Source: Daphnia pulex (Eukaryota; Arthropoda; Branchiopoda; Diplostraca; Daphniidae). From it: 64,000 nucleotides of DNA. Made by a program: the position numbers and the translations under genes. This document shows, piece after piece, positions 12,858 to 62,796 of the stretch (position 1 is the stretch's first letter; each line of letters opens with the position of its first letter). A model generated the notes under the pieces. It saw only the letters and a list, made by a program, of their open reading frames with translations, did no database searches and was not told the DNA's origin. The DNA lies in NCBI RefSeq assembly GCF_021134715.1, contig NC_060023.1:11842001-11906000 (forward strand), given 5' to 3'.

Positions 12858-12875
12858 AAGTGAGTTTTAAGCCAT

Positions 12876-13212
12876 TTGGTATTAATTTGATATTGTTTTT
12901 TGTAAACCCATCCCCGGCAACGTCAACCTGCAGAAGGAAGAGGCCAGTTTGCATGTCCTTCACTTTCGAAGGTCACTGAGATCATTACGTAAAACTGTCA
13001 ATGTTGTGGTGTAGAGGTTGGGTAAGAAAGGCAAGTTTTACATAACCATTTGGTATTAATTTGATATTGTTTTTTTGTAAACCCATCCCCAGCAACGTCA
13101 ACCTGCGGGAGGAAAGGCCAGTTTGTACGTCATTCAACCGAAGGTCACGGAGATCATTACATAGAATTGGTAAAACTTTCTTGCAGTGGTGTAGAGGTTG
13201 GGTGAGAACGAC
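12876..13212 (+). repeat. Tandem ~170-bp duplication upstream of the repeat gene (left arm)
   Basis: Two adjacent copies, about 12,876–13,046 and 13,047–13,212, each begin CATTTGGTATTAATTTGATA and end near GTGTAGAGGTTGGGT. They share the CCCATCCCC and CAACGTCAACCTGC blocks. The doublet lies just upstream of the TATA box, so it may carry regulatory sites. It is mirrored at about 21,330–21,670 in the right arm. Confidence 0.7.
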
Positions 13213-13288
13213 ACGTGTTGCAACATTATCAAGTAGGTCTACAATTGCCGCAAGGCTTGAGTTGAGAGGTAAGGGTGAGAAAAAGTCG

Positions 13289-13324
13289 TATAAAAGGAGA
13301 GAGAAAAGGCCACAGTGATCAGTC
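13289..13324 (+). promoter_or_regulatory. TATA box and TCAGT initiator (left arm)
   Basis: TATAAAAGG starts at 13,289 and a TCAGT arthropod initiator lies at 13,320–13,324, a spacing of about 31 bp. This is a textbook focused core promoter for the repeat-protein gene downstream. Confidence 0.75.
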
Positions 13325-13398
13325 GAGTTAGGATCTCCGACACGGGAACAACTGCAGCGCACCAGATGACTTCTTCATCTCATTATCAGTTCGCAATC

Positions 13399-13790
13399 AT
13401 GGGTAAATAATCAATTTTAATTCGAGTCGTGAATGAATTCTATCTTATGTTAGTTATTGAAATGACTAGTTGTATTCGAAAATTAATTTTTAAATCGTTT
13501 ATTGTATTGTTAACTATGACGCCGTGCTGCAGTTGGGTGTTGCATCGTTGATGTCGACCACGAGAGAAAATCATACTGCAACATACTCTGCTCCATCTTA
13601 AAACATGGGTAAATATTCTGTTTGTTTTTAACATGGAGTTGTGAATCATTCCATATTTTTCTATTCGTTAATTTACTAGTTCTAACTAATAATTAATGTT
13701 AAATTATTTTTTGTCTAGTTGACTATGGGTCGTGCTGCTGTTGGGTGTTGTATCGTTGATGGCTGGGGCGATCACGGGGTACCGATGTAT
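13399..13790 (+). repeat. Duplicated first exon and intron of the repeat gene (left arm)
   Basis: The segment from ATGGGTAAAT (13,399) to the GTTGATG block (about 13,555) is repeated from ATGGGTAAAT (about 13,607) to GTTGATGG (about 13,762). Each copy contains an ATGG|GTAAAT start-plus-donor, an intron with an ACTAGT block, and a GTGCTGC/TTGGGTGTTG stretch. Read in one frame, that stretch would encode a hydrophobic signal-peptide core. Confidence 0.6.
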
Positions 13791-14401
13791 TTGAGTGTGG
13801 TGGTACCAAACCGCAACGCCGCCGCTTTACTACACAACGAAGTCAACATACGGAACATGTACTTCTCGAGGCCCCTAAATACTACACCACCAAGGCTCTA
13901 AGTATTAAACTAAAACCTACCGATGCCTCATCTAACTATACTAATGCTCCCATGTACTATTCTGTTCCCAGCTACTACACCGAGGATCTAACTTGTTACA
14001 TCACCGAAACGCCCAAATACTGCACTACAACCTACGTTGCCCCAGCTTACACCACGAAGGGAGCCGAGTACTACACCACGAAGGGAGCCGAGTACTACAC
14101 CACGAAGGGAGCCGAGTACTACACCACGAAGGGAGCCGAGTACTACACCACGAAGGGAGCCGAGTACTACACCACGAAGGGAGCCGAGTACTACACCACG
14201 AAGGGAGCCGAGTACTACACCACGAAGGGAGCCGAGTACTACACCACGAAGGGAGCCGAGTACTACACCACGAAGGGAGCCGAGTACTACACCACTACTT
14301 ACGCTACTACCACTTACTACACCGAAGCACCTAAGTATTACTCTGCCCCGAGTTATTACAACACTAAGGCAGCCGCAACTTACTACATGGAGCTTCCTTA
14401 A
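13760..14401 (+). CDS. Tyr/Thr-rich tandem-repeat protein, left copy
   Basis: The open frame from 13,760 (first ATG 13,952) to the stop at 14,399–14,401 encodes 149 aa from that ATG. After MYYSVPSYYTED there are ten perfect 8-residue units TTKGAEYY (14,051–14,290), then TTYATTTYYTEAPKYYSAPS and a short tail. The composition (Tyr, Thr, Lys, Pro) resembles extracellular structural or adhesive proteins, and similar YYT/EAPKYY repeats are, from memory, common in Daphnia; the function is unknown. A good TATA/initiator promoter lies upstream. However, the hydrophobic, signal-like stretch at 13,729–13,775 is in a different frame from the repeats, and the repeat frame meets a stop at 13,757. The 5' end is therefore either decayed or reached by splicing I cannot resolve. 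AATAAA is at about 14,494. Confidence 0.55.
   Translation, partial: WLGRSRGTDVFECGGTKPQRRRFTTQRSQHTEHVLLEAPKYYTTKALSIKLKPTDASSNYTNAPMYYSVPSYYTEDLTCYITETPKYCTTTYVAPAYTTKGAEYYTTKGAEYYTTKGAEYYTTKGAEYYTTKGAEYYTTKGAEYYTTKGAEYYTTKGAEYYTTKGAEYYTTKGAEYYTTTYATTTYYTEAPKYYSAPSYYNTKAAATYYMELP
14051..14290 (+). repeat. 24-bp coding minisatellite, 10 units
   Basis: Ten head-to-tail copies of the 24-bp unit ACCACGAAGGGAGCCGAGTA plus CTAC, identical to one another, each encoding TTKGAEYY. The perfect identity suggests recent unequal exchange or slippage. Confidence 0.97.
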
Positions 14402-14855
14402 TGTCAGAGCCGACTATTTGAGTTTATTATTATTTGTCGGTGGTCTTCATGATCATTGGTCACTGGGAGTTAATTGTTGATCTTAAATGAGTAAATAAAA
14501 ATATTAATGCGGGTAATTCTTTTGCAAGACTTCAATGGTAGTAACTTCAAGCCTGTCAACGTTGTTTCATGTCTCAATGGTGATTACTGCCATAGTCACT
14601 CTACATACGGACATGTTCTAGCGGTTTAACGATGATATTTCAAGGGTAAGTTACGAACAAACTTGTAACTGTTGGATCTGTTAAAGGGGAAGTGACTGAT
14701 CTTGGTAATTCCTAAACAAGACTTGGTATAAATTAAAAGACAATGAACAAAAAACTTATAAAAAGAATTGTGTTATATTGTCCCACCTCCACCCACAATT
14801 CCACCACATTTTACAATCACATACACATATACATACATACATACACTTGAGTTAA

Positions 14856-15118
14856 CCCGTTGGCTGCCACGCCATACAACCCGTAGGTTGCTTTCTACTA
14901 ATCTACGTGCCACGTCTGAAGGATCCATGACCAAGTGGGACTTGCCATTGCTGACAAGTCCGTGCTGACAAGGGGAGGACTAAGGTGCATTGCCTTTTAA
15001 CAGGCTTGCCTTGCGGCAAAGTTTGGGCTTGGCGACTCCCCGACCCTGCGGCTTTTAAACCACGAGACCGAACAGCGCGGCCCGTGCAGTGGAGGACAAA
15101 GGTGTGGCAGCCAACGGG
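14856..15118 (+). mobile_element. piggyBac-type MITE in TTAA (left arm)
   Basis: This 263-bp element is bounded by TTAA on both sides (14,852–14,855 and 15,119–15,122). It has perfect terminal inverted repeats CCCGTTGGCTGCCAC / GTGGCAGCCAACGGG. A TTAA target duplication and ends that begin CCC are the signature of piggyBac transposition. There is no transposase ORF, so it is non-autonomous. Confidence 0.85.
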
Positions 15119-15340
15119 TTAACTAACACAAACACAAACACAATACGATGATCCACATTGATGACGAGTCTCGGTGTCGGTCGCGATTTCACCGAGTTTC
15201 GTTCGCACCAGGAGCAGGGGCAACATCCAACGGAGACCGGTGACGATTGTCAAAGATGAGAAAATCCATCTTCTCGACGTCTCCTCTGCATTACCTGAAT
15301 CAAGACAAACAATTCTTATTAAGTGACATGCCAATAAAAG
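15119..15340. other. Transcribed-looking block with splice-like end (left arm)
   Basis: The mirror copy at 18,813–19,013 is open for about 66 codons, and here a similar frame is open on the minus strand. I do not recognise the protein and cannot show it is coding. Confidence 0.2.
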
Positions 15341-15459
15341 TTACATAATAGTCACATAATACATATGGGATCATTGATCTGTTTTTTTTTGCTCAAAACT
15401 TCAAAGGCGCGCTTTAAATTGCTTAAAATCTACCTAAGAATATTGAGAACTGTACACAT

Positions 15460-15847
15460 AACAAAGCTCACTTGCTAGTCTAAAAAAAAAATTCCGGAAG
15501 TAGACCGGAAGTAACCACAGCGCCTCAACCATTGAGCTGTCATCAAATTAAACCACATATTCGTGATCTCCATGAAATTTGGGGTCGATTAGGTGTGATT
15601 TAAACGAAATCCAAAATTTGGCCAAAATCGAGAATTTTCCTGAACTATAGTTCAGGAAAATTTTCGAAACCGGAAGTACGAAAACGTAAAAAAGATAACA
15701 TGAACTTTACCACAAATTTTACGAGGATCACGAATATGTGGTTCTTTTGCTCCTCAAATGAATATTTACTGAACTACAGACTGAAATGAGCAAACCGGAA
15801 GTAGAAAAAAAAGCAAAATTTCGAAAATTTAACAAGTGAGCTTTGTT
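15460..15847 (+). mobile_element. Fold-back MITE (left arm)
   Basis: A 388-bp element with terminal inverted repeats AACAAAGCTCACTTG / CAAGTGAGCTTTGTT. Its interior is also largely self-complementary: CCACATATTCGTGATC near the left pairs with GATCACGAATATGTGG near the right, and the centre is a perfect palindrome around CCTGAACTATAGTTCAGG (about 15,641–15,658). There is no ORF. The superfamily is not clear, since no certain target duplication is visible. Confidence 0.75.
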
Positions 15848-16991
15848 GCTAGCATAGTAATCGTCAGTTATCACTAAATATTTCAAAAAAATAACTGCCG
15901 ATAAATGTTAAAAGACATGTGCAAAGTTCCTGAAACTGACTGTTTTGACAGCTGCAAATTTTCAAAAAGCCATCTAGCGTTGGAAAAAAGAAACTTCAAT
16001 ATTAAACTTCGTTGGCGCGTAAGAAGGGCCTGATTTTGGAAACTACTACACGGACAGAGTCTAACTCAACTAGACTATTGGTAGATAACCTACGAAAATA
16101 AGTCAAATGTTGGGTACCTGGGCATAATCCCGTGGTGAATGATGACAGGTGTGTCACAGGCTCACAGCGGGCGGAAGCGAACACTGAAGTAATTTAATTC
16201 GTCAATGAAGCACAAGAAGCAGCGTACGTCGTGAAGATAAGGACCCAGACGTTGGTAGAAGTCCTTCTTCTTTCTTGGATACAAAAACCAGCGTTGGCTC
16301 AGGACTCACGATTCCATGAAGAATCTGCGTTGTAGATTGAAACTGGCGGCCGACTCGCGATCTCAGAGGACGTCATAAATAGTTCTGTAAAAATGAGTTG
16401 GGAATTAAAAGGAAGCTTAAACAAAATTAACTCATAGTAGCATGGCAAAAGGTGATAATGATGTTTACCTTTATCATTTGGGTGACGAATTCAGAAAGAC
16501 ATTAGACTTTGATCAAGCAGATCTGGAAATGTACTAAATACACCTCTTCATGTACATTCACTGAAACTGGAACTGTAATTAGCAATTGGATAAGGAAAAT
16601 TATTTATATTATTTACAAATTTACATATGAAAAACAAAACTCTACCTATCTCTCAGCTGGGTTGCCTTCTGAGCGGCTGTAGAAACAGTTGTACACTCGA
16701 CAAACAATCTGACACAGGTTACACTTGCAACTTGCAAGATTCAGAAAAGATCCTATGGTCCATGCACAAGAACTTTGTCTAATTCCACTGTATGTAGGCT
16801 TCAAATATGAGTTTCAGGGTTTTGACAGCATAAGGATCCAATGGATGGAAAGCAACTTTAGCACTAAGTCAACTTGTTGGAATGACGGACTGACTTTCTA
16901 GAATTTAAAGAGATGGATGTAATATTTCAAAATAAAGAAACAAGGTCAAGATAAACCTACACCATAAACCTACAAACGAAGTTCAATTGAG

Positions 16992-17156
16992 TATTCGGAA
17001 TCACAAAAGGGTTCTATTAACGGTGGAGTTCTTCTGTCAGCAACCCTTATTTACTGACCGCTAGATGCCACTGTTTTCAATTGATTTTGTCATACGGCCT
17101 GCATCATGAAACATGGCGAAACAAATTGTTGCTATTTACTTATTTTTCTGTGAATT
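16992..17156. other. Spacer (loop) of the inverted repeat
   Basis: About 165 bp that does not pair between the arms, although a few bases at each edge still resemble each other. No gene or mobile-element feature is visible in it. Confidence 0.7.
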
Positions 17157-18284
17157 CTCAATTGAACTTCGTTTGTGTAAGTTTATCTTGACCTAGTTTC
17201 CTTATTTTTTTATCTATTACATCCATTTCTTCAAATTCTAGAAAGTCAGTCCGTCATTCCAACAAGTTGACTTAGTGCTCAGTCACTTTCCATCCATTAA
17301 ATCCTTATGCTGTCAAAAGCCTGAAACTCATATTTGAAGCCTGCATACAGTGGAATTAGACAAAAGTTTTTGTGCATGGACCATGGATCTTTTCTGAATC
17401 TTGCAAGTGTAACCTGTGTCAGAATGTTTGTCGAGTGTCCAACTGTTTCTACAGCCGCTCAGAAGGCAACCCAGCTGAGAGATAGGTAGAGTTTTGTTTT
17501 TCATATGTAAATTTGTAAATAATTTAGATAATTTTCCTTATCCAATTGCTAATTACAGTTCCAGTTTCAGTGAATGTACATGAAGAGTGTGAAGTGTATT
17601 TAGTACATTTACCAGATCTGCTTGATGAAAGTCAAATGCCTTACTGAATTCGTCACCCAAATGATAAAGGTAAACATCATTATCACCTTTTACCATGCTA
17701 CTATGAGTTAATTTTGTTTAAGCTTCCTTTTAATTCCCAACTCATTTTTACAGAACTATTTATGACGTCCTCTGAGATCGCGAGTCGGCCGCCAGTTTCA
17801 ATCTACAACGCAGTTTCTTCATGGAATCGTGAGTCCTGAACCAACGCTGGTTTTTGTCCATGACAGAAGAAGGACTTCTACCAACGTTCGGGTCCTTATC
17901 TTCACCACGTACGCTGCTTCTTGTGCTTCATTGGCGAATTAAATCACTTCAGTGTTCGCTTCCGCCCGCTGTGACACACCTGTCATCATTCACCACGGGA
18001 TTATGCCCAGGTACCCAACATTTGACTTATTTTCGTAGGTTATCTACCAATAGTCTAGTTGAGTTAGATTTAGTCTGTCCGTGTAGTAGTTTCCAAAATC
18101 AGGCCCTTCTTTCGCGCCAACAAAGTTTAACATTGAAGTTTCTTTTTTCCAACGCTAGATGGCTTTTTGAAAATTTGCAGCTGTCAAAACAGTCAGTTTC
18201 AGAAACTTTGCACATGTCTTTTAACATTTATCGGCAGTTATTTTTTTGAAATATTTAGTGATAACTGACGATTACTATGCCAGT

Positions 18285-18672
18285 AACAAAGCTCACTTGT
18301 TAAATTTTCGATATTTTGCTTTTTTTTTCTACTTTCGGTTTGCTCATTTCAGTCTGTAGTTCAGTAAATATTCATTCGAGGAGCAAACGAACCACATATT
18401 CGTGATCCTCGTAAAATTTGTGGTAAAGTTCATGTTATATTTTTTACGTTTTCGTACTTCCGGTTTCGAAAATTTTCCTGAACTATAGTTCAGGAAAATT
18501 CTCGATTTTGGCCAAATTTTGGATTTCGTTTAAATCACATCTAATCGACCCCAAATTTCATGGAGATCACGAATATGTGGTTTAATTTGATGACAGCTCA
18601 ATGGTTGAGGCGCTGTGGTTACTTCCGGTCTACTTCCGGATTTTTTTTTTAGACTAGCAAGTGAGCTTTGTT
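18285..18672 (-). mobile_element. Fold-back MITE (right arm)
   Basis: The mirror copy of the element at 15,460–15,847, with the same length and the same terminal and internal inverted repeats. Confidence 0.75.
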
Positions 18673-19013
18673 ATGTGTACAGTTCTTAATATTGCAAGCT
18701 TGTTTTTAAGTTTTAAAAATTGCATTTCTAAATGTTTGAGCTAAAAAACCAGATCGATGTGCCTATATGTATTATGTAACTTTTATTGGCATGTCACTTT
18801 ATTAAGTAAGAATTGTTTTGTTTTTATTCAGGTAATGCAGAGGAGACGTCGAGAAGATGGATTTTCCCATCTTTAACAATCGTCACCGGTCTCCGTCGGA
18901 CGTTGCCCCTGCTCCTGGTGCGAACGAAACTCGGTGGAATCGCGACCGACACCGAGACTCGTCATCAACGTGGATCATCATATTGTTGGTATTATTGTGT
19001 TTGTGTTAGTTAA

Positions 19014-19276
19014 CCCGTTGGCTGCCACACCTTTGTCCTCCACTGCACGGGCCGCGCTGTTCGGTCTCGTGGTTTAAAAGCCGCGGGGTCGGGGAGTCGC
19101 CAAGCCCAAACTTTGCCGCAAGGCAAGCCTGTTAAAAGGCAATGCACCTTAGTCCTCCCCTTGTCAGCACGGACTTGTCAGCAATGGCAAGTCCCACTTG
19201 GTCATGGATCCTTCAGACGTGGCACGTAGATTAGTAGAAAGCAACCTACGGGTTGTATGGCGTGGCAGCCAACGGG
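19014..19276 (-). mobile_element. piggyBac-type MITE in TTAA (right arm)
   Basis: The mirror copy of 14,856–15,118: 263 bp, TTAA at 19,010–19,013 and 19,277–19,280, same CCCGTTGGCTGCCAC inverted repeats. Confidence 0.85.
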
Positions 19277-19752
19277 TTAACTTAAATGTATGTATGTATA
19301 TGTGTATGTGATTGTAAAATGTGGTGGAATTGTGGGTGGAGGTGGGACAATATAACACAATTCTTTTTATAAGTTTTTTGTTCATTATCTTTTAGTTTAT
19401 ACCAAGTCTTGTTTAGGAATTATCTCAACTTTTAAGTCTTTCATTTATACCAAGATCAGTCACTTCCCTTTAACAGATCCAACAGTTACAAGTTTGTTCG
19501 TAACTTACCCTTGAAATATCATCGTTAAACCGCTAGAACATGTCCGTATGTAGAGTGACTATGGCAGTAATCACCATTGAGACATGAAACAACGTTGACA
19601 GGCTTGAAGTTACTACTATTGAAGTCTTGCAAAAGAATTACCCGCATTAATATTTTTATTTACTCATTTAAGATCAACAATTAACTCCCAGTGACCAATG
19701 ATCATGAAGACCACCGACAAATAATAATAAACTCAAATAGTCGGCTCTGACA

Positions 19753-20586
19753 TTAAGGAAGCTCCATGTAGTAAGTTGCGGCTGCCTTAGTGTTGTAATA
19801 ACTCGGGGCAGAGTAATACTTAGGTGCTTCGGTGTAGTAAGTGGTAGTAGCGTAAGTAGTGGTGTAGTATTCGGCTCCCTTCGTGGTGTAGTACTCGGCT
19901 CCCTTCGTGGTGTAGTACTCGGCTCCCTTCGTGGTGTAGTACTCGGCTCCCTTCGTGGTGTAGTACTCGGCTCCCTTCGTGGTGTAGTACTCGGCTCCCT
20001 TCGTGGTGTAGTACTCGGCTCCCTTCGTGGTGTAGTACTCGGCTCCCTTCGTGGTGTAGTACTCGGCTCCCTTCGTGGTGTAGTACTCGGCTCCCTTCGT
20101 GGTGTAGTACTCGGCTCCCTTCGTGGTGTAGTACTCGGCTCCCTTCGTGGTGTAGTACTCGGCTCCCTTCGTGGTGTAGTACTCGGCTCCCTTCGTGGTG
20201 TAGTACTCGGCTCCCTTCGTGGTGTAGTACTCGGCTCCCTTCGTGGTGTAGTACTCGGCTCCCTTCGTGGTGTAGTACTCGGCTCCCTTCGTGGTGTAGT
20301 ACTCGGCTCCCTTCGTGGTGTAGTACTCGGCTCCCTTCGTGGTGTAGTACTCGGCTCCCTTCGTGGTGTAGTACTCGACTCCCTTCGTGGTGTAGTACTC
20401 GGCTACCTTCGTGGTGTAGTACTCGGCTACCTTCGTGGTGTAGTACTCGGCTACCTTCGCGGTGTAGTACTCGGCTCCCTTCGTGGTGTAAGCTGGGGCA
20501 ACGTAGGTTGTAGTGCAGTATTTGGGCGTTTCGGTGATGTAACAAGTTAGATCCTCGGTGTAGTAGCTGGGAACAGAATAGTACAT
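19753..20586 (-). CDS. Tyr/Thr-rich tandem-repeat protein, right copy
   Basis: The mirror paralogue of the left-arm gene: 277 aa from the ATG at 20,586. The N-terminal MYYSVPSYYTED block and the C-terminal TEAPKYYSAPS tail match the left copy, but there are 26 instead of 10 eight-residue units. Most units are identical TTKGAEYY; the variants (TAKVAE, TTKVAE, TTKGVE) cluster at the 5' end of the array, so expansion was in the middle or 3' part. Upstream, the same TATA/initiator and duplicated first exon occur in mirror image, with the same mismatch of frame between the signal-like stretch and the repeats. Two convergent copies across a palindrome can pair and convert each other. The function is unknown; a secreted structural role is a guess from composition. 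Confidence 0.55.
   Translation of the reverse strand: MYYSVPSYYTEDLTCYITETPKYCTTTYVAPAYTTKGAEYYTAKVAEYYTTKVAEYYTTKVAEYYTTKGVEYYTTKGAEYYTTKGAEYYTTKGAEYYTTKGAEYYTTKGAEYYTTKGAEYYTTKGAEYYTTKGAEYYTTKGAEYYTTKGAEYYTTKGAEYYTTKGAEYYTTKGAEYYTTKGAEYYTTKGAEYYTTKGAEYYTTKGAEYYTTKGAEYYTTKGAEYYTTKGAEYYTTKGAEYYTTTYATTTYYTEAPKYYSAPSYYNTKAAATYYMELP
19864..20487 (-). repeat. 24-bp coding minisatellite, 26 units
   Basis: Twenty-six head-to-tail copies of the same 24-bp unit as in the left arm, read on the minus strand. Variant units sit near the 20,350–20,487 end and the rest are almost perfect. Confidence 0.95.
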
Positions 20587-21218
20587 GGGAGCATTAGTAT
20601 AGTTAGATGAGGCATCGGTAGGTTTTAGTTTAATACTTAGAGCCTTGGTGGTGTAGTATTTAGGGGCCTCGGGAAGTACATGTTCCGTATGTTGACTTCG
20701 TTGTGTAGTAAAGCGGCGGCGTTGCGGTTTGGTACCACCACACTCAAATACATCGGTACCCCGTGATCGCCCCAGCCATCAACGATACAACACCCAACAG
20801 CAGCACGACCCATAGTCAACTAGACAAAAAATAATTTAACATTAATTATTAGTTAGAACTAGTAAATTAACGAATAGAAAAATATGGAATGATTCACAAC
20901 TCCATGTTAAAAACAAACAGAATATTTACCCATGTTTTAAGATGGAGCAGAGTATGTTGCAGTATGATTTTCTCTCGTGGTCGACATCAACGATGCAACA
21001 CCCAACTGCAGCACGGCGTCATAGTTAACAATACAATAAACGATTTAAAAATTAATTTTCGAATACAACTAGTCATTTCAATAACTAACATAAGATAGAA
21101 TTCATTCACGACTCGAATTAAAATTGATTATTTACCCATGATTGCGAACTGATAATGAGATGAAGAAGTCATCTGGTGCGCTGCAGTTGTTGCCGTGTCG
21201 TAGACGTTCACTCGACTG

Positions 21219-21249
21219 ATCACTGTGGCCTTTTCTCTCTCCTTTTATA
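21219..21249 (-). promoter_or_regulatory. TATA box and initiator (right arm)
   Basis: The mirror of the left-arm promoter: TATAAAAGG on the minus strand starts at 21,249, with the initiator about 30 bp downstream near 21,218. Confidence 0.7.
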
Positions 21250-21686
21250 CGACTTTTTCTCACCCTTACCTCTCAACTCAAGGCTTGCGGCAATTGTAGA
21301 CCTACTTGATAATGTTGCAACACGTGTCGTTCTCACCCAACCTCTACACCACTGCAAGAAAGTTTTACCAATTCTATGTAATGATCTCCGTGACCTTCGG
21401 TTGAATGACATACAAACTGGCCTTTCCTCCCGCAGGTTGACGTAGCTGGGGATGGGTTTACAAAAAACATTATCAAAATGAATACCAAATGGTTATGTAA
21501 AACTTGCCTTTCTTACCCAACCTCTACACCACAACATTGACAGTTTTACGTAATGATCTCAGTGACCTTCGAAAGTGAAGGACATGCAAACTGGCCTCTT
21601 CCTTCTGCTTCTGTAGGTTGACGTTGCCGGGGATGGGTCTACAAAAAACAATATCAAATTAATACCAAATGACTTAAAACTCACTT

Positions 21687-43716: not shown

Positions 43717-45147
43717 TCATTTAAATGTGGAGTGGGTCGATGAGGCTTGGCAGAGGATGGCGACGTACGTCAGGGTACTTCCAATCAACTTGACAAGGAA
43801 AGAAAAATAATAATTGTCCTATTTGTGCTATTTTATAGTAATTTCTCACAACGTACCGTTGGCAAAAGTCTGCGGTTGACGTCGAAGAATTCCATGGCCG
43901 TAATTTTGGGACTGGCATGGGTTACCTCAATCACCACGGTATTCAACTAAATTGCAAGAGTAACCAGGACAGACGCAATCACGAGCTATTCATCAAGTTG
44001 AAAACTATACGAAAACTAGTTACTACGTACTTTGATTTGGGATAGGAGATCCGCAGTGGAAGGTTGGAGTTTGCGGAGAGACACGGCAGTCCGTCCAGCC
44101 TAGAAACAACCAGAATTGAATTACATTTTCAAACAATTGAAAGTGAATTACCTCGGCCTGCAAGCGGTAGGGTTCGTAAATGATGATGGAAAGCAGAATG
44201 GATTTCTTGGCAAAGATGAAAACAAACAGGACAGGGATCGTGGCATCTTCCTGCATGGATCGGACGATTTCGAATGTCGTCGTGATGAAACTGACAAAGA
44301 CGTTGACTACGGTGACGAGCATCACCACTCCGAAACATTTGTTGACCATCTCGACCAGTTCGCAGGCTAAAGCGTGATTCCTTCGCCATTTTTCCAGACG
44401 GCCATTCCAGATCCTGCCGGTCAAATAGAACGGGGAAAATTGCTCGGCTTCATCTATGCGAGCGATTTGCTCATTCAGTCCCTGGAAGACGAGCGTGATG
44501 ACCCTGGCCATGACGCAAAAGAGCAAGAAGACGCTGATGATGGTCGTCCTGGAAATGTTGGCCAGAACAATAGCCAAAGGACTCATCAATCCCATGTCCC
44601 AGTAAATGGAGCGCATCGAGACCAATAAATGGCTGAGGCAGTCCTATAATTATTAAATTACAATCAATAAAGAAACAGTGAAATTGAATAAATAAATTGT
44701 TACCATAAGCAAAAAGGCGAATCCGACCAATAAACTTTTCCTGCACTTGGCGTAAAATGTCGAATTGAATTTCAGATTCTTTTCAAGCACCAGCAGCGAG
44801 TCCCACAGTTCCGTCCAGCTGGAGGTGAGCGAAACAAAGAAGAAGGTCGTGTGGATGGCGATAAGGACCCAGGTGTAATTCAGGTGTTCGATGCCGATGT
44901 TGAGGAGGTTGGCCGTCGTCAAATTGGTGCCGTTGGGACCCAGTCCGTTCGCCTTGAGCCTCAACACGCCGTAAACGAATGAGGTACAATGGAGAGCAAC
45001 GGTCGACAAGACCATCAGCGATCCCGTCAGCAACAAGCCAATGGAATAGCGACTCGATCCCGATTTCTGGCTGGGACCCATGTGAAATCCAAAGATTCTC
45101 AATCCGACCATCAAAGGCCAAAGACTCGTCTCTATGCTGAGTAACAT
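43717..45147 (-). CDS. Gustatory receptor 2 of the array
   Basis: Five exons join in phase 0: 45,147–44,704, 44,643–44,152, 44,099–44,031, 43,946–43,857 and 43,788–43,717 (388 aa). It has about seven membrane segments. Family blocks shared with Gr3–Gr5 are LSTVALHCTSF, TTFFFVSLTSSW, YWDMGLMSPLAIVLAN, GLNEQIARIDEAE, LEKWRRNHALACELVEMVNK and YEPYRLQAE; the end is GSTLTYVAILCQAS. The Gr C-terminal motif is present, but Phe after Gln is replaced by Ala. Intron positions are identical to the neighbours, so the gene arose by tandem duplication. Confidence 0.88.
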
Positions 45148-48564: not shown

Positions 48565-49965
48565 TTACTGTGAATGCGATGAAACTTGGTGGAGGATGGC
48601 CACATACGTCAGTGTACTTCCAATCAACTGAAAGTAAAAATTAATTCAATCACGTACGTCTACGTATGCAAATCAAAATGGAATACCGTCGGCAACAATC
48701 TGAGATTGACATCAAAGAATTCCATGGCTGTAATTTTGGGACTGGCGTGAGTTACCTCTACCACCACAGTGTTTAGCTGTAAACATTTTGAAATATTAAT
48801 TTAAACCCAATTTAATTAAATCGTATACTAGTAATTATACTTTAATTTGCGTCAAGAGATCGACAGTCAAAGGATGGATATTGCGGAGTGCGACTGCAGT
48901 GCGGCTAACCTACATCATCCCAAAATCATTAAAGCGGAATCAAATTATAAATTATAATCAATAATTTAATTAAACCTCGGCCTGCAGACGATAGGGCTCG
49001 TAAATGATGATGGTGAGCAGACAGGATTTCTTGGCAAAGATGAAAACGAACATGACGGGGATCGTGTCGCTTTCCTGGATGCAATTGACAATTTCGAACG
49101 TCGTCGTGATGAAACTGACAAAGACGTTGATGACGGTGATGACCATCACCAGACCGAAACATTTGTTAATCATCTCAATCAGCTGACATGCCAGCGTGTG
49201 ATTCCTACGCCATTTCTCTAGACGGACATTCAAAATCCGGCTGGAATAGACGGAAGAAAACTTTTCCGGCTCGTCCAGGTCATTGATTTGCTCGTTAAGT
49301 CCTTGGAAGATGAGCGTCAGGACCCTGGCCAGTACGCAGAAGAGCAGGAAAACGCTGATGATGGTCATCCGGGAGAAATTGGCCAGAACAATAGCCAATG
49401 GACTCATCACTCCCATGTCCCAGTAAAAGGAGCGGATGGAAAGGAATATGTGGGTGACGCAATCCTACACGATAATCATCCGTTACACAAACAGCAAAGG
49501 TAAAAGAATAAAATTGCAGGTAATTACCATGAATAAAAAGCCGAATCCAATCAGGACGCTCCTTCTGCACTTGGCGTAAAATGTCGCATTGAATTTGAGA
49601 TTCTCCTCGACTAGGTGTAATGTGTCCCACAACTGGGTCCAGCCGGAAGTGAGCGAGACAAAGAAAAAGGTCACGTGAACTCCGATGAGGACCCAGGTGT
49701 AATTGAGATGCTCGATTCCGATGTTGAGCAGTTTGGTGGTCGTCAGGTTGGCGCCGTTGGGTCCGATTTCGTTGGCCTTGAGTCGCAAGACGCCGAAAAC
49801 GAAGGAGGTACAATGGAGAGCAACGGTCGAGAGGACCATTAGCGATCCGGCCGATAACAGCCAAACGGAATAACGACTGGATGAGCTGGACGACGGCCCC
49901 ATGTGAAAGCCGAGGAGTCTCAGTCCGGCCATCAGAGGCCACAGACTTTTCTCAAGGTTCAACAT
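48565..49965 (-). CDS. Gustatory receptor 3 of the array
   Basis: Five exons join in phase 0: 49,965–49,528, 49,464–48,976, 48,909–48,841, 48,776–48,687 and 48,627–48,565 (382 aa). It has the same intron positions and family blocks as Gr2, with which it is closest (both begin with a WPLM segment and share GVLRLKANxxGPNG and the NIGIEHLNYTWVL block). A Ser run (SSSSSSR) replaces the basic loop after the first segment. The C-terminus is GSTLTYVAILHQVSSHSQ. The second coding exon is one codon shorter than in Gr2, Gr4 and Gr5. It lies 3.4 kb from Gr2, the gap being filled mainly by dispersed repeat copy A. Confidence 0.88.
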
Positions 49966-50783: not shown

Positions 50784-52244
50784 CTATTTGGAATGCGAAG
50801 CCACTTGATGTAGAATGGCCACATACGTCAGGGTACTGCCAATTAACTGAAACCAAATCAAGACCAAAATGAATTAAATTGATAATAAAATCGAGAGATA
50901 ATTATAATACCGTTGGTAACAGTTTGAGATTCACGTCGAAAAACTCGATGGCCGTGATTTTGGGACAGGCGTGAGTGACTTCCATCACGACCGTATTCAC
51001 CTGAATAAAAAGTAATTTATGCATTTTTTAATCAAATAGACCACACAGCGTGTGAACGAATTCTTAGAAATTTTCAATCTATATTAAATTACTTTGATTT
51101 GCGTGAAAAGATCGGCGGTGAACGGGTGCAGCCTCCTGAGCGACGACGCCGTCCGTCCGGTCTGCATATCATCACGCAAGAAAACGTGAATTGAATCAGA
51201 TAGAAAGGAATAATGGCAGTAGTTATACCTCGGCCTGCAATCGATAGGGCTCGTAAAACATGATGGTGAGCAGGATCGACTTTTTGACGAAGATGAAGAC
51301 CAGCAGAAATGGCAACGTCTCATCGTCTTCCATGGATCGGACGATTTCGAACGAAGTCGTCACGAAACTGACGAAAACGTTGACCAACGTGATGAGCATG
51401 ACGAAGCCGAAACATTTGTTGACCATCTCGACCAGTTCGCAGGCTAAAGCGTGATTCCTACGCCATTTCTCTAGGCGGACGTTCAAGATCCGGCTGACGG
51501 AGTAGCACTGCGGCACCTGTTCCACCTCGTCCAGGTGAATGATTTGCTCGTTCAGTCCCTGGAAGACGAGCGTGATGACCCTGGCCAGAACAAAAAAGAG
51601 CAGAAACACGCTGGAAATGGTCGTCCGGGAGATGTTGGCCAGGACGATGGCCAACGGACTCATCCATCCCATGTCCCAGTAAAATGAATGGATCGAAATA
51701 AACAACTGGCTGGCGAAATCCTGAAATCAAAATTACCATTAACAAATGTACAATTAAAACTAAAACTTGAGATAATTACGACGAATAAAATGGCAAATCC
51801 GATGACGACACACTTTTGGCACTTGCGATAAAATGTGGAATTGAATTTGAGATTGGCCTCGATCAGCTGCAGTGAATCCCACAGTCCCGTCCAGTTGGAC
51901 GTGAGAGAAACAAAGAAGAAGGTCGTGTGGACGCCGATGAGGACGCAGGTGTAATTCAGGTGCTCGATGCCGACGTTGAGCCGATTGGCCGTCGTCAAAT
52001 TGGCTGTCGTGCCGTTGTGCTGGGCCATCCCGTTGGCCCTGAACTTGAGGAAACTGCGAACGAACGAGGTACAGTGGAGAGCAACGGTCGACAGGAGCAT
52101 CATCGATCCTGTCATTAGCAGACAGACGGAATAGCGATGACGATTGGGAGATGCCGATTCTTTCTTCCGGCTGGGACCCATGTGGAAGCCGACGATCCTC
52201 ATCCAAACAATCAGCGGCCAAAGGCTCGTCTCGATTTTCAACAT
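50784..52244 (-). CDS. Gustatory receptor 4 of the array
   Basis: Five exons join in phase 0: 52,244–51,780, 51,720–51,229, 51,161–51,093, 51,000–50,911 and 50,846–50,784 (392 aa). The domain order is as in Gr2 and Gr3. The first loop is longer and basic (SRKKESASPNRHRYS), and the extracellular loop carries an NGTTANLTTANR stretch with possible N-glycosylation sites. The C-terminus is GSTLTYVAILHQVASHSK. The start was placed at the Met of LKIETSLWPL, which aligns with the starts of the paralogues. The open frame continues far upstream (to 52,613), but that part is not conserved. Confidence 0.88.
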
Positions 52245-53282: not shown

Positions 53283-54714
53283 TTATTTGGAGTGTGCCGC
53301 AACTTGGTGAAGAATGGCCACGTATGTCAGGGTACTTCCAATCAGCTGAAAGGGGGGAACAATAGAAAGATCAATAACAATCAAATACAAAAAGAGTTGT
53401 TGTGCTGTGCAATGAGAGTAAATGTACCGTCGGCAAGAGTCTGATGTTGACGTCGAAAAATTCCATGGCAGCAATCTTGGGGCTGGCGTGCGTGACTTCC
53501 ATCACGACCGTATTCACCTGTATTGTTTGTTATTAGATGTATGTTTATAGAAGGTTGTTGTTGTATTACTTTGATTTGAGTGAAGAGATCGGCAGTTAAT
53601 GGGTGGAGCTTCCGCAGAGAGGCTGCAGTCCGGCCAGCCTTGTGACCGCAATTCAAATTAAACGATTAAAACAATTAAAATTAAATTCTAGACCATTATT
53701 AGTCACCTCAGATTGCAACCGATAGGATTCGAAAAAGACGATGGCCAGCAGGATCGATTTGTTGACAAAAATGAGCAGGAGCGAAAATGGCAGTGATTCG
53801 TGATTGCCCATTGAGCTGACGATCTCGAACGAAGTTGTCACGAAACTAACGAAAACATTAATGATGGTGACGAGCATGACTAGTCCGAAACATTTGTTGG
53901 CCATGTCGACCAGTTCGCAGGCTAAAGTGTGGTTCCTACGCCACTTCTCCAACCGGAGATTCAGGATCCTGGCGGATAGATAAATGGGCAGAATTTTCTC
54001 GGCTTCTGTTAAATTAGCAATTTGCTTGTTGAGGGCCTTGAAGACGAGCGTGATGACTCTGGCCGTGACGCAAAAGAGCAGGAAGACGCTGATGATGGTC
54101 ATCCTGGAGAAATTGGCCAGGACGACGGCCAGTGATCTCATGACGCCCAAATCCCAGTAAGACGAGCGGACAGAGATGAACAAATGCGTCACAAAATCCT
54201 GAATTCAATTAATTATTTAAGGATATTGATTTTAAAATAATAATTCGACTAATAGTACCAGCAAGAGACAACCGAAGCCGATGGAAACGCTTTCCCGGCA
54301 CTTGCGATAAAACGACGATTTGAATTTCAAATTCTTCTCGATGAGGAGCAGCGAGTGCCAGAGGCTCTTCCAGTTGGAGGTGAGCGAGACAAGGAAGAAA
54401 GTCGAGTGCACTCCGATATTGAACCAAGTGTTGTTGAGGTGCTCGATGCCAGCGTTAAGGAGATTGGCCGTCGTCAAGTTGTTGCCATCGTTGCTGCTGG
54501 GTCCCAGTTTGTTGACTCGGAGGACGCCGTGAACGAACGAGGTACAGTGGAGAGCAACAGTCGACAACAGCATCAGCGATCCTGTTAGCAACAAACAAAT
54601 GGAATAATTCTTCGATCCGGATTTCCTCTTCCGGGTGGGGATTTCCATGGGAAAACCAAAGATTTTCATCCAGACGGTCAGAGGCCAAAGACTCTTTTCA
54701 ATTTTCAACAACAT
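53283..54714 (-). CDS. Gustatory receptor 5 of the array
   Basis: Five exons join in phase 0: 54,714–54,259, 54,198–53,707, 53,638–53,570, 53,517–53,428 and 53,345–53,283 (389 aa). It shares exon pattern and motifs with Gr2–Gr4 but is the most changed of the four: PTRKRKSGSKN in the first loop, SNDGNNLTTAN in the outer loop, NLTEAEKILPIYLSAR where the others have a DEPEKF-type loop, and FFESYRLQSE instead of YEPYRLQAE. The C-terminus is GSTLTYVAILHQVAAHSK. It is the 5'-most gene of the array; dispersed repeat copy B begins about 550 bp upstream. Confidence 0.88.
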
Positions 54715-60836: not shown

Positions 60837-61355
60837 ATGACTGTTTTCACTGTAGGAGTGGTAGCAGCCGTCGCGACTGCAGGACTAGCAGCTCCCGTAG
60901 TGACCGCCCCGGCCTTAAGTGGGATGGTGGCTGGATCAGCCTCAGCCGCTTCTGCGGCAGCAGCAACAGCCACAGCCACAGCGACAGCGGGAGCAGGAAC
61001 AGCAGCTGGTGCCGCCGGTTCAACTGCCGTGATCGCAAGCGGCCCAGTCGGCTGGATCGTACTCGGAGCTGAAGACTGGGGATTGCAGCATCACTGGGAA
61101 GTTGGTGGCTTCACGTTCGACTGCTGGAAACCGGTGGTACGAGACTATTCGACCCAACTGTCGAGCGGGAAACTCTTGAAGGACTTTTTAAAGGATCAGC
61201 GCGTCAAGGAAATCATCGTTCACGAGAGCCGAAACAATTGGAATCTACCCGAATTACGTCTGGTCAACATTTGGGACGAGCAATTTGACATCAATTATCT
61301 CGTTTTGCCCTATAATAACCAACTGGTGGCTCACGCCGTCCGAGTGATGGCATAA
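60837..61355 (+). CDS. Gly/Ala-rich protein with FDCWKPVVRD domain, copy 1 (intronless)
   Basis: A single open exon, 172 aa. Residues 1–75 are a hydrophobic Ala/Gly/Thr-rich region (VGVVAAVATAGLAAP, then long Ala/Thr runs), which could insert in or associate with membranes and loosely recalls ISG12-type proteins. Next is GPVGWIVLGAE, then a compact domain: FTFDCWKPVVRD, SSGKLLKDFLKDQRVKEIIV, LPELRLVNIWDEQFDINYLV and LVAHAVRVMA. Copy 2 (62,034–62,796) is strikingly similar in this C-terminal domain but has two introns and a different N-terminus. From memory, uncharacterised fungal proteins carry the same GPVGW..LG / DCWKP combination; I cannot verify that here. The function is unknown. Confidence 0.75.
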   Translation: MTVFTVGVVAAVATAGLAAPVVTAPALSGMVAGSASAASAAAATATATATAGAGTAAGAAGSTAVIASGPVGWIVLGAEDWGLQHHWEVGGFTFDCWKPVVRDYSTQLSSGKLLKDFLKDQRVKEIIVHESRNNWNLPELRLVNIWDEQFDINYLVLPYNNQLVAHAVRVMA

Positions 61356-62033: not shown

Positions 62034-62796
62034 ATGACCGTTTTGACGTTCGTTGTAGCGACGACCATCTCCTTTACCGGAAGCACGGCGCCGTTTGCGG
62101 CCCCCGCACTGGCCGGAACGCTCACCGGTACTTCATCCTCAATCTGAAACATTTAAATTCATTTGTAATCGCCAATCTACACATTTAAAAAAAAAAAAAA
62201 ACAGGAATTGTGACCATATCGGCAGCACCGGATTCGGGTGGAATAAATGCAACAGTGGCGGGATCAGCCGGAGCGGGAGCCGTGGTTGGCGCCATCAGCG
62301 CTGTTGCTGGTTGGATATTTTTTCGCCTATCTTAGTATTATTTTTAAAATTGAATTTAAGCTAATTATTATTCAATTGCATTCCAGAAAATGGTTCAGCT
62401 TTAATTGGGGCGGTTCTCGGATCAGCTTCGTCTGCTGCCGTGACTTGCTGCAGCGCAGGTTTCGCCGGGGTAGTCAATACCGGACTCACGACCGGCCCCG
62501 TCGGATGGCTGCTCCTCGGAGCACAACAACAACCCGACCGCCAAGACATTGGTGCCACGTTCGACTGCTGGAAGCCGGTGGTACGAGACAATTCGACCCA
62601 ACTGTCGAGCGGGAAACTCTTGAAGGAGATTTTAGAGGATCAGCGCATCAAAGAAATAATCGTTCACGAGAGCCGAAACAGTTGGAATCTTCCCGAATTA
62701 CGTCTGGTCAACATCTGGGAGGAGCGATTCGACATCAACTATCTCGTTTTGCCCACCAATAACCAACTGGTGGCTCACGCTGTTCGTGTGTCTTAA
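62034..62796 (+). CDS. Gly/Ala-rich protein with FDCWKPVVRD domain, copy 2
   Basis: Three exons join in phase: 62,034–62,127, 62,205–62,309 and 62,387–62,796 (202 aa). The first half is again hydrophobic and Gly/Ala/Thr-rich (MTVLTFVVATTISFTGSTAP, VAGSAGAGAVVGAISAVA, GAVLGSASSAAV). The C-terminal domain matches copy 1 almost residue for residue: GPVGWLLLGA, TFDCWKPVVRDNSTQLSSGK, EDQRIKEIIVHESRNSWNLP, LRLVNIWEERFDINYLVLP and LVAHAVRVS. The DNA is also very similar in the domain and much less so in the N-terminal part. The two genes are direct tandem copies about 700 bp apart. Confidence 0.78.

Follow-up and report, generated by a model that had tools for sequence, protein, structure and literature searches.

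Palindrome architecture

The window analyzed here, the whole 64,000-nucleotide stretch of Daphnia pulex DNA at C7:11842001-11906000, carries a long palindrome in which each arm holds a copy of a repeat-protein gene and two miniature inverted-repeat transposable elements (MITEs). One assembly was used throughout (133.19 Mb, 13 contigs); loci are named by contig and position, so that C7:11594 is C7:11.594 Mb and C11:3015 is C11:3.015 Mb. Features were located by comparing the window with itself using the Basic Local Alignment Search Tool (BLAST), by motif matching and from a list of open reading frames (ORFs).

12858-16962, plus strand: left palindrome arm, 4105 bp (opposite-strand self-BLAST)
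16963-17174, no strand: non-palindromic spacer, 212 bp, with homologous spacers at six other palindromes in either orientation
17175-21686, minus strand: right palindrome arm, 4512 bp, the reverse complement of the left arm (self-BLAST)
12868-13208, plus strand: two direct repeats (12868-13028 and 13043-13208) upstream of the left gene, at the arm's outer end (self-BLAST)
21330-21671, minus strand: mirror of the outer direct repeats in the right arm (self-BLAST)
13289-13294, plus strand: TATA-like box of the left gene (motif match only)
13399-13402, plus strand: ATGG at the end of a putative first exon, ahead of a GT donor; a second at 13605 (prediction)
13952-14401, plus strand: ORF of the left repeat-protein gene, listed at 149 amino acids
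19753-20586, minus strand: ORF of the right repeat-protein gene, listed at 277 amino acids
14048-14295, plus strand: 24-bp minisatellite, 10.3 copies
19859-20490, minus strand: 24-bp minisatellite, 26.3 copies
14852-15122, plus strand: MITE1, with terminal inverted repeats adjoining TTAA
19010-19280, minus strand: mirror copy of MITE1
15459-15848, plus strand: MITE2, with inverted ends AACAAAGCTCACTTG
18284-18673, minus strand: mirror copy of MITE2
15124-15470, plus strand: divergent island, 347 bp, about 88% identity, the arms differing at 39 of 335 sites

The palindrome is real, and one of this length is, in our judgement, far beyond chance. The initial annotation had described inverted arms around a spacer of about 165 bp. 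Self-BLAST bore this out with arms of 4105 and 4512 bp, and the ends of the spacer resemble a short inverted repeat in sequence, leaving an unpaired core of about 150-165 bp. The mirrored content was likewise recovered, as a TATA-like box, a repeat-protein ORF and the two MITEs are found in both arms. The term "near-perfect" was an overstatement: 106 of 4067 or 113 of 4068 aligned bases differ in two alignments (97.2-97.4% identity over about 4070 bases), the first with 24 gap events, and the arm lengths differ by 384 bp owing to the minisatellite. Identity is also uneven along the arms. It holds at about 99.8% in the gene part (13400-14700; 3 substitutions in 1301 aligned bases) and falls to 88% in the island and to about 94% in the innermost stretch of about 360 bp (16600-16962; 20 of 354 bases differ). 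The left and right outer flanks are different sequences.

A dispersed family of palindromes

A search of the genome with 1 kb from the center of the window palindrome found paired opposite-strand matches at six other places, and 13 loci were fetched as 20-kb stretches. Palindromes were read at C7:11.594, 9.805, 11.990, 12.071 and 11.753 Mb and at C11:3.015 Mb. Their main arm blocks are 98.4-99.96% alike, with some outer blocks lower, down to 83-84% at C7:11.990. Together with the window palindrome they make seven, measuring 8.8-13.6 kb, on two contigs, with a common spacer whose plus-strand orientation divides them four versus three. Spacers of the palindromes are about 0.15-0.9 kb long, and arm lengths and outer ends vary between loci.

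Two further palindromes have other centers. At the eighth, C11:3300, the arms are 99.91% alike in their outer 3325 bp and only 83.6% in the inner 1143 bp, and the center differs from the seven-locus spacer. The ninth, C11:1988, was predicted from gene coordinates; its inner arms are 95.2% alike over 1073 aligned positions, and the 2.4 kb that were read matched neither the window palindrome nor C11:3300. The three dissimilar centers suggest more than one palindrome origin. The search also yielded single-arm relatives (C6:2.06, C9:7.67, C1:4.047 Mb and others), several of which share homology extending past the spacer. At those on C6, C9 and C4, GGAGTTCTACTGTC-like motifs repeat beyond the position of the spacer; the palindrome junction may lie inside an array of such motifs. 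Collectively, these results showed that the window palindrome is one member of a dispersed family on many contigs.

Mirrored layout across the genome

The window protein, used as a tblastn query, gave 150 listed rows, grouped into 102 gene-like clusters, with neighbors taken within 12 kb. All counts in this section refer to the matches listed. Neighboring clusters were convergent in 30 cases, divergent in one and on the same strand in one, and 60 of the 102 clusters sit in convergent pairs. A second family protein, again with 150 listed rows and with score-matched neighbors taken within 22 kb, gave 44 convergent, two divergent and five same-strand pairs. Thirty-seven of the convergent pairs have identical bit scores, and 80 of the 150 rows fall in convergent pairs, the remaining 70 being unpaired partly as an effect of which matches were listed. 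None of 10,000 strand shuffles reached 44 convergent pairs (highest, 26). The 38 "distinct axes" derived from this second search include crossed pairs and were not used. Seven loci were found by both queries, and for six of them the two axes match to within one base; at C11:3015 they are 156 bases apart, as its unequal arrays would cause.

The union of the searches contains at least 61 convergent mirrored loci on 10 contigs by hit coordinates, a count picked from the listed coordinates in which equal scores were not required for part of the searches. It includes 29 of the 30 convergent window-protein pairs, that at C7:9.93 Mb being omitted as doubtful. All nine mirrored loci read in letters are palindromic (C11:1988 over its central 2.4 kb only). 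These nine are the window, the six chosen for their both-strand matches in the central search and two others, so that only C11:3300 and C11:1988 are near-independent checks, and C11:3300 too had both-strand central matches.

For comparison, the cuticle protein family PF00379 of the same genome (150 listed rows) gave nine convergent, two divergent and 73 same-strand score-matched neighbors, and at identical score one, none and 27, respectively. This family replaced the WAP family, which was too small to serve as an arrangement control. The mostly same-strand order of PF00379, the one control family, indicates that the mirror layout is not general in the genome or assembly.

Two side observations concern the same family. 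A subfamily of mirrored pairs on C1, C7, C9 and C11 has near-equal scores of 73.6-75.2 bits, which looks like recent spread between chromosomes. C1:4613068-4617277 holds a mirrored pair of the rare divergent type, whose two copies score equally.

Probable arm-to-arm gene conversion

Arm divergence was compared among eight palindromes in two segments, S1 (14700-16190 of the window and its counterparts) and S2 (the inner segment). In S1 the arms differ by 0.00% at C11:3015, C7:12071 and C7:9805, 0.07% at C7:11594, 0.13% at C11:3300, 0.68% at C7:11753, 1.74% at C7:11990 and 3.90% in the window, and the smallest distances to another locus are 1.15-7.33%. Thus, in seven of the eight palindromes the nearest relative of each arm is its partner and not an arm of another locus, the window being the exception.

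Differences are also patchy along the arms. Long interior stretches with 0-1 mismatches per 250 bp are found in five of the seven spacer-sharing palindromes, and differences lie mostly at the center and outer ends. At C7:11594, C11:3015, C7:9805 and C7:12071, most 250-base interior blocks are mismatch-free, and mismatches fall at the center or outer ends. Such stretches are confined to the inner part at C7:11.990 and to the gene part in the window, and C7:11753 has a mismatch gradient climbing toward the center.

The island accounts for much of the exceptional behavior of the window. Both the window and C7:11.990 carry two island versions, one per arm, which differ at 39 of 335 and 26 of 341 sites, respectively, within a locus, and matching versions of the two loci differ at only 8 and 10 sites. 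Outside the island, the S1 arms differ at 0 of 1150 positions at C7:11.990 and at 18 of 1125 in the window. The two island versions therefore explain most of the S1 divergence of the window. The simplest reading is that both loci descend from a palindrome whose arms already differed at the island and that C7:11.990 has since been homogenized around it.

Inversion of the center and a probable crossover

Direct comparison of C7:11594 with C11:3015 points to exchange of a second kind. The two loci have about 0.6-0.7 kb of outer flank in common on each side, left with right and on opposite strands. One of these flanks is 88% alike over 709 bp; the other matches in two blocks, 266 bp at 88% and 307 bp at 75%. 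An 8.4-kb plus-strand alignment between them crosses the spacer, and both spacers lie on the plus strand. Since the flanks are swapped and the spacers are on the same strand, the center of one of the two loci is inverted relative to its flanks, the outcome that a crossover between inverted arms would produce. Divergence is about 12% in the better flank blocks, compared to 5.65% in the 8.4-kb alignment and 2.2% in S1. That the flanks are more diverged than the palindrome hints at exchange between loci; constraint could contribute.

MITEs and the repeat-protein gene

The initial annotation had used the shared MITEs to date the copying of the arms, a use that fails. Both MITEs occupy the same place in both arms of all eight palindromes whose arms were read (at C11:1988 only the center was), and MITE2 is present in all seven single-arm loci. 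MITE1 passes a 180-bp filter in one of the seven (C1:4.05 Mb), and shorter pieces occur in others. Because they are present across palindromes and single-arm loci, the MITEs date nothing about the window palindrome and are probably older than it. MITE1, with its TTAA, is presumably piggyBac-like.

Several members of the gene family have a hydrophobic, signal-peptide-like stretch followed by Tyr/Thr/Lys repeats, as read by eye. A Pfam search of the repeat protein gave nothing at cut-off, with Cornifin and AraC_binding below it only; membership in PF00379 was rejected as the Chitin_bind_4 domain was not found in the protein. An intact gene model was also rejected for the window copies. In both arms the predicted spliced product (exon 2 at 13719 in the left copy) ends after 14 amino acids, and to judge from the sequence the copies may be pseudogenes. 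As the predicted early stop is common to both copies, homogenization would then be blind to coding intactness. At C7:11594, too, no canonical first-exon donor was found and a stop lies within the frame, so that no member of the family is claimed to be intact.

The coding minisatellite differs by 16 units between the otherwise similar window arms, and array gaps of 288 and 264 bp (12 and 11 units) separate the arms at C11:3.015 and C7:12.071 Mb. As array lengths differ within otherwise similar arms in three palindromes, the array either escapes homogenization or changes faster.

Proposed explanation

The common spacers, arm versions and MITEs, together with a center inverted between common flanks in one locus pair, indicate that the palindromic layout is older than the identity of the arms. 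We therefore propose, with a probability of roughly 0.85, that these are old palindromes, duplicated as units and homogenized by arm-to-arm gene conversion with occasional crossovers. Each palindrome carries a mirrored pair of secreted-type Tyr/Thr/Lys repeat-protein genes in convergent (tail-to-tail) order. Should one arm be broken, it would be repaired with the other as template, so that kilobase patches would be copied from arm to arm, lesions and MITEs included, and occasional crossovers would flip the center. Stretches near the loop and at the outer ends would be converted less and drift apart. Whole palindromes would also be duplicated to other sites. Through conversion the two genes of a pair would evolve as a single unit, functional or not.

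Several observations weigh against this explanation. First, conversion tracts were deduced from one assembly and judged against paralogous loci. Second, the window arms are 3.90% apart in S1 versus 2.03% to another locus, and 4.31% versus 1.32% in S2. In S2 the arms are closer within than between loci in only four of the eight palindromes, the failures being clear at the window and C7:11753 and narrow at C11:3015 (3.38% versus 3.26%) and C7:11594 (1.47% versus 1.32%). The central segments of the window and these failures mean that inter-locus exchange, or conversion that is weak near the center, must be added. Third, exchange between the window and C7:11.990 could be an alternative source of their common island versions, and part of the gradient from center to interior could stem from mutation rates that vary along the arms. 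Fourth, the arms of C7:11.990 are 94.45% alike overall and strongly diverged in their outer parts, with outer limits set by hand. Finally, seven of the 13 fetched loci, the single-arm relatives, are non-palindromic, with no inverted repeat above 250 bp.

For the window palindrome, the initial annotation had offered either arm-to-arm conversion or a very recent origin. The first option is well supported by the comparison with palindromes of the same genome. The second is disfavored, as six other loci carry the same spacer and, in two central segments, the closest relative of a window arm is not its partner.

Alternative explanations

Giant foldback-type transposable elements, moving as units with the gene as cargo, are an unlikely alternative to old, converted palindromes. 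Foldback and Galileo transposons have long inverted arms with sub-repeats near their ends, and the palindromes resemble them both in the length of their inverted arms and in the short repeats that lie outermost. Dispersal over 10 contigs among the matches listed, an outer limit near 12858-12874 common to many relatives and flank homology confined to about 0.6-0.7 kb around two copies would also fit such elements. However, no consistent target-site duplication was found at the outer ends of seven palindromes, six with measured edges and one (C7:11.990) with hand-set limits; any matches there were just 6-8 bp long, and their offsets did not agree. The arms differ in length and in their outer ends from locus to locus, single-arm copies exist, and no Pfam transposase was found in the seven of 10 listed window ORFs that were searched.

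It is more doubtful still that the palindromes arose separately and recently, each by inverted duplication of a single-copy unit, with arm identity reflecting youth and not conversion. Single-arm units do exist, and the three dissimilar centers fit more than one origin, but independent duplication does not fit one spacer common to seven loci on two contigs, arms that mix 0-0.1% with 8-16% divergence within a single locus, or the presence at two loci of the same pair of island versions, one per arm.

An assembly artefact, in which a hairpin-type or collapsed read made the mirror arm, is highly improbable because the arms differ by about 2.6% plus a 384-bp array, the flanks differ in sequence, contig C7 spans 12.28 Mb and the same architecture recurs, with nine of nine mirrored loci read being palindromic and one control family mostly same-strand.

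Comparison with known systems

The closest known counterparts are the human and ape Y palindromes (P1-P8), which undergo arm-to-arm gene conversion (PMC3723533). Those and the present palindromes have in common gene-bearing inverted arms, a single-copy spacer, identity kept by conversion and rarer arm-inverting crossovers. Here, inverted high-identity arms surround a single-copy spacer (kin main blocks, 98.4-99.96%; window, 97.4%), most falling below the >99.9% arm identity of human Y palindromes; the palindrome is older than its arm identity, as seen from the common spacer, patchy identity and common island versions; and inversion of the spacer or arms, as by crossover, appears in one locus pair, C7:11594 and C11:3015. 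Unlike the Y palindromes, which are few, large and on a haploid sex chromosome, those in Daphnia are small, of one family, number in the tens and are spread over 10 contigs, not confined to one chromosome.

Mirrored gene pairs with concerted evolution are also described for Drosophila Hsp70 and amylase, where the orientation may limit copy-number change by crossover (PMC3924832). Those families have few loci each, compared to at least 61 mirrored loci here, several with a common center in either orientation. The inverted heat-shock modules of C. elegans, with a spacer of 416 bp (PMC3966223), resemble the present palindromes in orientation and in a spacer of a few hundred bp, and differ in forming a single small locus, with no dispersed family described in the text available. 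Gene collinearity revealed 19 palindromes in Adineta vaga and 15-16 in Folsomia candida; in the same survey of parthenogenetic animals few were reported outside these two, and D. pulex could not be screened (PMC7953838). These palindromic gene blocks of invertebrates are discussed there as conversion sites, and unlike here they are not, as described, one family repeatedly mirrored. No report of this palindrome family was found in open-licence literature; in the available text of a D. magna paper (PMC10570034), the word "palindrome" concerns read trimming only.

A broader proposal, which we hold tentatively and at somewhat less than even odds, is that the palindromes are the working unit of this family: pairs would have formed repeatedly with unrelated centers, been copied intact to the approximately 61 listed sites on 10 contigs and corrected themselves, as an autosomal counterpart of Y ampliconic palindromes in tens of copies.

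Palindrome-borne conversion is best known from sex chromosomes, with few palindromes, each large. With a single gene type repeated in tens of small palindromes across many contigs, one genome would provide replicates for measuring how often conversion occurs, how long its tracts are, where it is limited near the loop and how it is balanced against crossover, and clonal Daphnia lines would allow direct counting of conversion. These results also raise the question of why the repeat-protein family, and not the cuticle-protein family, stays in mirror pairs.

Other repeats in the window

Four same-strand direct repeats of about 1 kb, 73-78% alike, lie between 44150 and 54694 (44150-45127, 48974-49947, 51226-52232 and 53705-54694) and are probably a tandem gene or element cluster. 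A 235-bp direct repeat, 91% alike, is found at 61112-61346 and 62556-62790.

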